Below are positions 51,194-53,908 of a stretch of DNA of 64,000 nucleotides, piece by piece. The translations under genes and the position numbers were made by a program. Below the pieces are notes generated by a model. The model made no database searches and was not told the DNA's origin. It saw only the letters and a list, made by a program, of their open reading frames with translations. The stretch spans positions 186,001 to 250,000 of the forward strand of contig NZ_PDWS01000002.1 of assembly GCF_010093305.1 (NCBI RefSeq), given 5' to 3'. Each line of letters opens with the position of its first letter. The stretch's first letter is position 1. The stretch is from Pseudoxanthomonas sacheonensis (GTDB lineage Bacteria; Pseudomonadota; Gammaproteobacteria; Xanthomonadales; Xanthomonadaceae).

Positions 51194-53908
51194 ATGACGG
51201 CAACCCCGCGCCACACCCGCCTTTCCGGCCTCGAGCCGCTGGTCATCACGCCCGATCTGTTGTTCATCAACGTCGGCGAGCGCACCAACGTCACCGGCAG
51301 CGCGCAGTTCAAGAAGCTGATCAAGGAAGAACGCTACGAGGAGGCGGTGGAAGTCGCTCGCCAGCAGGTCGCCAACGGCGCGCAGATCCTCGACGTCAAC
51401 ATGGACGAAGGGCTGATCGATTCGGAGAAGGCGATGGTGCGCTTCCTCAACCTGATCATGTCCGAACCTGATATCGCCCGCATTCCAGTGATGGTCGACT
51501 CGTCCAAGTGGAGCGTCATCGAGGCCGGCCTGAAGTGCCTGCAGGGCAAGAGCGTGGTCAACTCCATCTCGCTGAAGGAAGGCGAAGAAGCTTTCGTCGA
51601 GCACGCGCGCAAGGTCTTGCGTTATGGCGCCGCCGCGGTGGTGATGGCTTTCGACGAGGACGGCCAGGCCGATACCTGCCAACGCAAGGTCGAGATCTGC
51701 ACCCGCGCCTACAAGGTGCTGACCGAGAAGGTGGGATTCCCACCCGAAGACATCATCTTCGATCCGAACATCTTCGCCGTGGCCACCGGCATCGAGGAAC
51801 TCGACAACTACGCGGTCGATTTCATCGAAGCCACGCGCATCATCAAGCAGACTTTGCCGGGCTGCCACGTCTCCGGCGGCGTGTCGAACGTGTCGTTCTC
51901 CTTCCGCGGCAACGAACCGGTGCGCCAGGCGATCCACTCGGTGTTCCTGTACCACGCCATCAAGGCCGGCATGGACATGGGCATCGTCAACGCCGGCGGC
52001 ATGCCGATCTACGACGATCTGGACCCGGAGCTGCGCGAACGCGTCGAGGACGTGATCCTCAACCGGCGCAAGGATTCCACCGAGCGCCTGCTGGAGATCG
52101 CCGAGCGCTACCGCGGCAAGAAGGGCGAGGTACAGGTCGAAAACCTGGCCTGGCGCGAAAAGCCGGTGCGCGACCGCCTCAGCCACGCGCTGGTGCACGG
52201 CATCGACCAGTACGTGGAGACCGATACCGAGGAGGCGCGGCAGATGTCCACGCGCCCGTTGGATGTGATCGAAGGTCCTTTGATGGACGGCATGAACGTG
52301 GTCGGCGACCTGTTCGGCGCGGGCAAGATGTTCCTGCCGCAGGTGGTGAAGTCGGCCCGGGTCATGAAGAAGGCGGTAGCCTACCTACTGCCCTTCATCG
52401 AAGCCGAAAAGTTGCGCACGGGCGAAGTCGGCAAGTCCAACGGCAAGATCATCATGGCCACGGTCAAGGGCGATGTGCACGACATCGGCAAGAACATCGT
52501 CGGCGTGGTGCTGGCCTGCAACAACTTCGACGTGGTGGACCTGGGCGTGATGGTGCCCACGCAGAAGATCCTGGATGTGGCGCGCGCCGAGAACGCCGAC
52601 CTGATCGGCCTGTCCGGCCTGATCACGCCCTCGCTGGAGGAAATGACCCACGTCGCGCGCGAGATGCAGCGCCAGGGCATGACCATGCCGTTGCTGATCG
52701 GCGGCGCCACCACTTCCCGAGCACATACCGCGCTGAAGATCGATCCGCACTACAAGTCGCCGACCGTCTGGGTGAAGGATGCTTCGCGCGCGGTGGGCGT
52801 GGCGCAGTCGCTGATTTCCAAGGACCTGCGCGGGCCGTTCATGGCCGCCAACGACGCCGATTACGCGGAGATCCGCGAGCGTCACAAGAATCGCGGCGAC
52901 GCCAAACGCCTGGTTTCGCTGGCGAAAGCCCGTGAGCAACGCTTCGATGGCGGCTGGGACGACTACACCCCGCCTACACCGAACAAACCGGGCATCACCG
53001 TGTTCGACGACTATCCGCTGGCCGAGCTGGTGGAGCTGATCGACTGGACGCCGTTCTTCCAGGCATGGGAGCTGGCGGGCAAGTATCCGGCGATCCTCAC
53101 CGATGAAGTAGTGGGCAAGCAGGCCAGCGAACTGTTCGCCGATGCGCAGGCGATGCTGAAAAAGATCGTCAGCGAGAAATGGTTGACGGCCAGGGCGGTG
53201 TTTGGGCTGTGGCCGGCAAATAGTGTGGGCGATGACGTTGTAGTCGGAGGCGTAGGAGCGACGTCAGTCGCGACTGACGTCGCTCCTACGAGAACTTTGC
53301 ACTTCCTTCGTCAACAGGTGGACAAACCCATCGAACGCCCCGACTTCTGTCTGGCCGACTTCATAGCTCCGAAGGATAGCGGCAAGCAGGACTGGATCGG
53401 CGCCTTCGCGGTCACCGCCGGCATCGGCATCGACGAGCACGTGGCCCGCTTCGAGGCCGACCACGACGACTACAACTCGATTCTGCTCAAGGCGCTGGCC
53501 GACCGTCTGGCCGAAGCCCTGGCCGAACGCCTGCACCAGCGCGTACGCAAGGAGTTCTGGGGCTACCAGCCCGACGAGCAGCTGGACAACGAGGCTCTGA
53601 TCGCCGAGAAGTACGTGGGCATCCGCCCCGCTCCGGGCTACCCCGCCTGTCCGGAACACAGCGAGAAGGGAACGCTGTTCGAATTGCTGGACGCAGGCAA
53701 CAACGCCGGCATGGCTCTGACCGAGAGCTTCGCCATGCTGCCTACCGCGGCGGTGTCGGGCTACTACTTCAGCCATCCCCAAAGCCAGTACTTCGTCGTC
53801 GGCCGCGTTTCCAAGGAGCAGGCCGAAGACTATGGCAAGCGCAAAGGGGCCGATCTGGCACAGGCCGAAAGATGGCTGGCTTCCAATCTGGACTACGATC
53901 CGGAATAG
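51194..53908 (+). CDS. metH: Methionine synthase, folate/cobalamin/reactivation subunit (C-terminal part of split MetH)
   Basis: A 904-residue protein carrying, in order, the methyltetrahydrofolate-binding pterin domain (about 15-310), the B12 cap (320-410), the B12-binding domain with the cobalt-ligating His429 in GDVHDIGKN, and the AdoMet-activation domain (about 590-904, with [12 protein letters not shown]). It methylates cobalamin with folate and transfers the methyl group to homocysteine held by the other subunit. Residues 687-699 are encoded by a 38-base REP palindrome inserted in frame. The rest of the domain, including the AdoMet site, is intact. The ATG at 51194 was chosen because the longer frame runs through the upstream REP. 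Confidence 0.93.
53252..53289. repeat. Perfect GTAG palindrome (family B variant) inside the metH coding sequence
   Basis: A 19-base arm GTAGGAGCGACGTCAGTCG followed directly by its exact complement. It is read in frame with metH as [12 protein letters not shown]. Other family B copies here read GACGTAAGTCGC, which would put TAA in this frame; this copy has TCA, and the other arm has the matching change (GAC instead of TAC). Confidence 0.93.

Follow-up and report, generated by a model that had tools for sequence, protein, structure and literature searches.

A REP palindrome in the reading frame of MetH, in a loop occupied by several kinds of repeat

The metH gene in the 64-kb stretch of DNA analysed here (the window) carries a perfect 38-base GTAG palindrome in the part encoding the activation domain, which an earlier note on this DNA had described and which the sequence and the open reading frame confirm to lie in frame. 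The same loop of MetH holds several kinds of repeat in related genomes, and close sisters carry different inserts there. In our judgement, abundant repeats have probably been inserted or exchanged here, with reading frame and protein tolerance deciding which of them persist, and selection for the hairpin is not needed to explain the insert in metH.

Results

A REP palindrome inside the activation domain of MetH

In the window metH is split into two open reading frames. The second is identified as MetH by NF007024 (1575 bits), and the palindrome falls inside its activation domain, PF02965, which spans residues 645-921 of the 940-residue product. The features discussed below are as follows.

50006..51058, + strand: MetH homocysteine-binding part, a separate ORF (family match; the listed open frame starts at 49049)
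51086..53908, + strand: MetH folate/B12/activation part, second ORF of the split metH (940-aa ORF, family match)
53237..53305, + strand: hypervariable MetH loop, VGDD to LRQQ (23 codons; 14 in P. gei)
53252..53289, + strand: GTAG REP palindrome, coding for 13 residues with 1 extra base
19956..20023, no strand assigned: further GTAG REP pair of the TAA form (arm search)
24223..24288, no strand assigned: further GTAG REP pair of the TAA form (arm search)
56017..56094, no strand assigned: further GTAG REP pair of the TAA form (arm search)

Judged from the letters and their translation, the palindrome at 53252-53289 would be read in frame with the MetH ORF between the VGDD and LRQQ blocks. With its 38 bases and GTAG start it has the form of a REP, a palindrome of 20-40 bp with GTAG at one end, and the window's genome holds many dispersed, mostly intergenic copies of it; a BLAST search with the REP gave 90 matches there, the two directions of a place being counted separately. 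It also appears to share the traits of the Rickettsia palindromic elements (RPEs), lying in frame in a conserved gene that seems intact and that has close homologues free of the insert.

Whereas the earlier note had the palindrome adding about 13 residues, the REP does code for 13, but the loop of 23 residues compares with 14 in the near relative P. gei (row L040, our reference for loop length and for insertions), so that 9 residues have been gained on balance and about four of the original ones replaced. When relatives were aligned, P. gei and many others lacked these residues, 63 of 162 rows having a 14-residue loop. These distinct MetH rows are what remained of 186 after removal of duplicates, with L106, L230 and L231 left out because they gave no usable row; part of them cover less than the whole 803-residue stretch, and since the set is enriched for inserts, long ones having been chosen deliberately, frequencies are given from the genus genomes and named relatives. 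The same kind of insert is found in G029 and in P. yeongjuensis (L039, G037), the latter agreeing with the window's insert in 36 of 38 bases and in its offset. Directly 3' of metH, an ORF at 53931-54449 starts MLANCPEIPFVVSLSNH and by eye resembles a translated intergenic repeat.

The reading frame and the variant of the repeat

The window has 8 arms of 23 bases, allowing at most 3 mismatches, where 0.00 would be expected, and they bear out the statement that the codon is TAA elsewhere and TCA in metH with a matching opposite arm: six window arms have TAA, and both metH arms have TCA. In the window's genome as a whole, GTAGGAGCGACNTNAGTCGCGAC matches at 16 distinct places (19 exact arms; backward control 0), with TAA at 9, TGA at 5 and TCA at 2. 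At twelve of the 16 places the longest covering open frame ends no more than 30 codons away; the remaining four are metH, two arms in an IcmF-like gene, and L137 (C44:118137), an open frame without an NCBIfam match that we left uncounted as a coding copy.

The earlier note had further seen in the TCA form paired changes that removed a stop codon from metH. A survey of the codon gives a divided answer, TCA being rare in the window's genome (2 of 16) and common in the genus genomes G001 and G007, where it makes up 28 of 77 and 13 of 59 matches (hand counts, in the two genomes for which all matches were listed). The TAA and TGA palindromes are open in frame 3 only, and the TCA palindrome in frame 1 only, so that any copy read in frame 1 must be the sense form. 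As TCA is moreover a standing variant in the genus, the frame picks the variant and no change inside metH is required. Paired compensatory mutation was therefore set aside as needless; a mutation to TCA within metH is possible, though it need not be supposed. Both TCA places in the window's genome are the two translated in frame 1, in metH and in the IcmF-like gene, and TCA is found at none of the 14 others (Fisher 1/120, by hand).

That both hairpin and frame are kept, as was also proposed, agrees with the perfect palindrome and the open frame in the window's metH. In P. yeongjuensis GTAG is replaced by GCAG and TCA by TCG on one arm of the insert, and the opposite arm is without matching changes; the hairpin is thus not strictly kept there. 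L244, lying between REPs on contig C11, was considered as a possible transposase, but its largest ORF looks hydrolase-like by eye.

One loop of MetH receives the inserts

The MetH loop has 20 or more residues in 11 of the 37 genus genomes with a match (out of 38 searched), G034 being scored by match length alone and G002 by identity in place with L061, and in 21 of the named relatives, of which the 80 most similar among 573 were taken. A metH match was present in 383 of the 395 genomes of the family sample. Among the matches listed outside the family in the class sample, lengths were 294 to 333 nt, except for one of 345 (G456) and three of 372-378; a spread of the phenomenon beyond the family was considered for these last three and rejected, as their inserts are single copy and thus not dispersed repeats. 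L238, L239 and L240, from other gammaproteobacteria of two other families, have a YDVQGGTSAAGDR-like insert in common in the MetH loop, likewise in single copy.

Across the 803-residue stretch of the 162 rows, insertions of at least 3 residues relative to P. gei sit at two adjacent alignment positions, both in this loop, and none was found outside it. At 79 of 80 named loci, repeat-motif matches in that portion of the main metH ORF which is homologous are confined to the loop (24 matches). Among the 80 loci, six further matches in the main metH open frame all lie upstream of the start of homology, and three more, within the homocysteine ORF, precede its DGAMGT motif. In L059, L064, L065 and L091, CTCTCCC-type repeats occupy the spacer between the two metH ORFs, upstream of the start of MetH homology.

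The inserts belong to several families of dispersed repeat

Most of the long loops can be read, from their sequence, as palindromic repeats of four families: two of REPs, heptad inverted repeats and CTCTCCC palindromes. Among the 162 rows there are 38 heptad inserts (GGGAxyS), 20 CTCTCCC/GGGAGAG palindromes, 4 REPs of the GGCTTCAGCC type, 3 GTAG REPs of the window's family, 8 other long loops, not counted as repeats, and 89 rows without insert. Labels were partly set by hand (L091 and L149 as heptad, L104 as CTCTCCC, and three double labels as heptad). Both REP families are headed by GTAG or GTGG, and the plainly unrelated kinds of insert therefore number three.

Dispersed copies of the insert repeats exist in the genomes tested, although the evidence is weak for part of the CTCTCCC cases; the counts refer to the named genomes searched and not to each insert. 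In 19 of 20 genomes the heptads match 16-327 times per strand, and in G004 2 and 5 times (overlapping units within one run being scored as separate matches), with a backward control of 0 except for 4 on one strand of G285. The GGCTTCAGCC type gives 21-275 per strand in G158, G133, G073, G044 and G068, 14 to 27 in G004 and G037, and 0 in G000 and G029, the control being 0 throughout. The CTCTCCC type gives at most 74 matches per strand, and its backward control, a harsh one as the pattern reads nearly alike backwards, is nonzero in 10 of 15 genomes (at most 23 and 20, in G065); the count is not clear of the control in G276 (7 and 6 against 4 and 6) and G401 (2 and 4 against 2 and 3), and the insert-bearing G361 and G404 hold 3 copies and 1. 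Abundance alone does not decide, since repeats are also plentiful where metH has no corresponding insert: the window's genome (G000) has 29 and 33 heptads and 21 and 23 CTCTCCC matches, and the GGCTTCAGCC type is present in G004 and G037. Heptads are free of stops in all six frames, a property that may explain why no other insert is as common.

The four families also have in common that they fold. Median z-scores for the hairpin run from -3.8 to -6.2 across them, against -0.4 in the 8 other long loops, and z falls below -2 in 29 of 38 heptad inserts, 14 of 20 CTCTCCC inserts and all REP inserts (4 of 4 and 3 of 3), as against none of the 8.

Turnover and exchange of the inserts

Close relatives differ in their inserts. 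G120 and G094, with 99.3% protein identity in the flanks, carry two different heptad inserts; L157 (no insert) and L172 (heptad) share 96.9%, and L074 (heptad) and L185 (CTCTCCC) 96.1%. The gene tree requires 43 changes among six states, or, with losses free, 25 gains, of which 17 remain without the class of other loops (at least 17 for the four families). As the tree was built quickly, from the protein of a single gene in which recombination may occur, the number of insertion events is uncertain. After collapse at support 90 the tree requires 45 changes, while shuffled labels give 68 on average and never fewer than 63; the inserts are thus inherited in part. A single vertical GTAG insertion for G000, G029 and P. 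yeongjuensis was rejected as a clade on a 30-row gene tree (AU p 8.8e-70), P. yeongjuensis metH lying outside the clade of the other two genes; the offset that they share despite this could be due to chance, a shared tract or a site preference.

One could speculate that the variety of the loop stems mostly from horizontal allele exchange, or from ectopic gene conversion with dispersed copies, and not from fresh insertion, the loop acting as a cassette for which flanks or repeat arms supply the homology. Such exchange overlaps with the explanation that we prefer, and we put its predominance forward as a credible if tentative possibility. The pair G120/G094 speaks for it, as do the ends VEVVLxDHRD...SRxLLHF, which are common to several genera around different cores. 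In 15 pairs compared, the flanks align up to the edge of the loop, and in several of them identity dips in the nearest 90 bases, a further point in favour. In 29 of 34 two-armed metH inserts, moreover, the commonest heptad type is the same on the left arm as on the right (shuffle mean 9.3, maximum 18). Against it, clustering at 70% identity separates the 65 inserts that belong to the four families into 24 groups, and their reading frames differ, so that several founding insertions are needed anyway. With recombination of metH alleles between species being possible, a gain is not firmly separable from an exchange.

A second site in an IcmF-like gene

The IcmF-like gene on contig C1 of the window's genome (L121/L246, 132546-135566 in G000) matches NF045497 with 1385.7 bits, below the cut-off of 1500, a piece of 1007 residues having been scanned. 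It encodes an IcmF-like fused mutase/GTPase with a GTAG REP pair that would, from the sequence, be translated, the frame-1 arm being of the TCA form and the arm in the opposite direction of the TGA form; upstream of the pair, paired heptad arms enclose a conserved stretch. In the linker before the mutase part, 23 of 29 IcmF-like sequences of the genus exceed the reference L268 by at least 8 residues, at one position. By eye, from the translation, several linkers can be assigned to GTAG, GGCTTCAGCC or CTCTCCC repeats, and several hold nothing nameable. The linker looks like a second repeat hotspot.

Heptad arms flank the conserved stretch upstream of the linker in 11 of the 29 sequences, and their commonest type agrees in 10 of the 11. 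In L246-L272, between GLVxMI and GITGTGG, the flanking arms switch type jointly (AAT/AAT, ATT/ATT, AAC/AAC). It is conceivable, if somewhat doubtful, that the MetH hairpin and the IcmF linker, each the one tolerant site of a conserved metabolic enzyme, are both cassettes in continuing exchange with dispersed palindromes, by gene conversion or lateral allele transfer; if so, paired arms would change type together, and sister species with near-identical proteins would have wholly different loops.

Structure of the loop and the case for selection

AlphaFold2 models the window's 23-residue loop as a low-confidence coil between strands at model residues 89-92 and 108-111, with pLDDT below 50 at residues 97-103, and the 61-residue loop of Stenotrophomonas terrae likewise as a low-confidence coil between two strands; in both models further stretches also have pLDDT below 50. 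The first model matches the activation domain of E. coli MetH (1msk, TM 0.84 by query length), and the insert is thus predicted to lie on the protein surface. In three small groups (7, 5 and 2 sequences), pN/pS is 0.26-0.83 in the loop and 0.08-0.18 in the flanks, and inserts diverge less than flanks at synonymous sites (0.123 vs 0.18, 0.173 vs 0.409 and 0.143 vs 0.311). The latter may reflect either constraint at the DNA or RNA level or a recent exchange; the joint pattern would arise from relaxed protein constraint with recent exchange, and equally from constraint on the hairpin.

The earlier note took the insert for the exaptation of a mobile repeat, of which one part holds, namely that a dispersed repeat seems to be translated within MetH with its frame kept. 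The other part, a selected role, be it of the loop or of the mRNA hairpin, we regard as unlikely; translation pausing or interaction with a reactivation partner would be examples. The strength of the hairpins (z of -6.2 in the window and -7.5 in G029), the lower synonymous divergence and the repeated gain at one place would fit such a role, but sister species make do with the plain 14-residue loop, inserts of unlike sequence and residues replace each other, and both the higher pN/pS and the modelled coil argue against it, as does P. yeongjuensis, whose hairpin is partly decayed, although its fold z is still -4.8. A DNA-level target preference, in which conserved bases around GDD...LHF draw elements regardless of protein tolerance, would suit the one offset exactly shared by all three GTAG inserts, but is very improbable given that heptad inserts (read in all three frames) and CTCTCCC inserts begin at many offsets and that the place is common to unlike repeats.

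Discussion

According to the explanation that we prefer, insertion or exchange followed by filtering, a GTAG REP would have entered metH at the tip of a beta-hairpin in the activation domain and would now be translated. Abundant genomic repeats may land in, or be exchanged into, many places, and in a conserved gene the survivors would be those inserts that keep the frame, are stop-free in it and lie at a point of the fold able to accommodate additional residues. In MetH the only such place would seem to be the hairpin tip, and this would lead to the repeated uptake of several repeat kinds there across Lysobacteraceae, with two sequence families of GTAG REPs, inverted repeats of GGGAxyS heptads and CTCTCCC/GGGAGAG palindromes presumably having replaced each other. 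The MetH inserts are probably neutral, and the agent moving the GTAG REPs would, going by the literature, be a RAYT transposase.

Repeats within genes have precedents. The accessible portion of PMC3733652 (Di Nocera et al. 2013) describes intragenic GTAG and CGTC REPs of several species that are read as protein, with different REPs at about one recB site in X. campestris and X. oryzae, and proposes loops as possible tolerant places for REPs; in that portion, unlike here, no site carries several repeat kinds across a bacterial family. The word methionine is absent from its main text; its supplementary list of intragenic REPs, which may include metH, lay outside this scope. It also reports the Rickettsia elements RPE-1, RPE-4 and RPE-6 as palindromes translated in frame within conserved genes. 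The likeness of the metH insert to these is one of mode, as a translated palindrome in a conserved gene; organisms and elements are others, and here several repeat kinds share one loop.

The heptad inserts in metH are, by the available part of PMC4692102, the same dispersed, G-rich heptads as the GGGAATC repeats of Xanthomonas, some of which occur in inverted pairs; 11% (Xcc) and 7% (Xac) of those heptads overlap ORFs at least partly. Translated heptad arms at a fixed site are not described in that part, and the word methionine is absent from the main text, the supplements being outside this scope. PMC12306157, as far as its accessible text goes, concerns REPs near stop codons that lower translation, and not translated REPs. 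Our literature search returned no paper on REP insertion in methionine synthase, and none on metH inserts by title or beginning of the abstract. Intragenic REPs and heptads are thus already known, and one site repeatedly occupied by several repeat kinds seems unreported in the literature searched.

Length variation in such loops need not imply function. The view that REPs are extragenic becomes a measurable question: where REPs survive in genes, and which filters act on them. One conserved site with several repeat kinds in dozens of species amounts to a natural experiment in insertion tolerance, frame filtering and repeat exchange.
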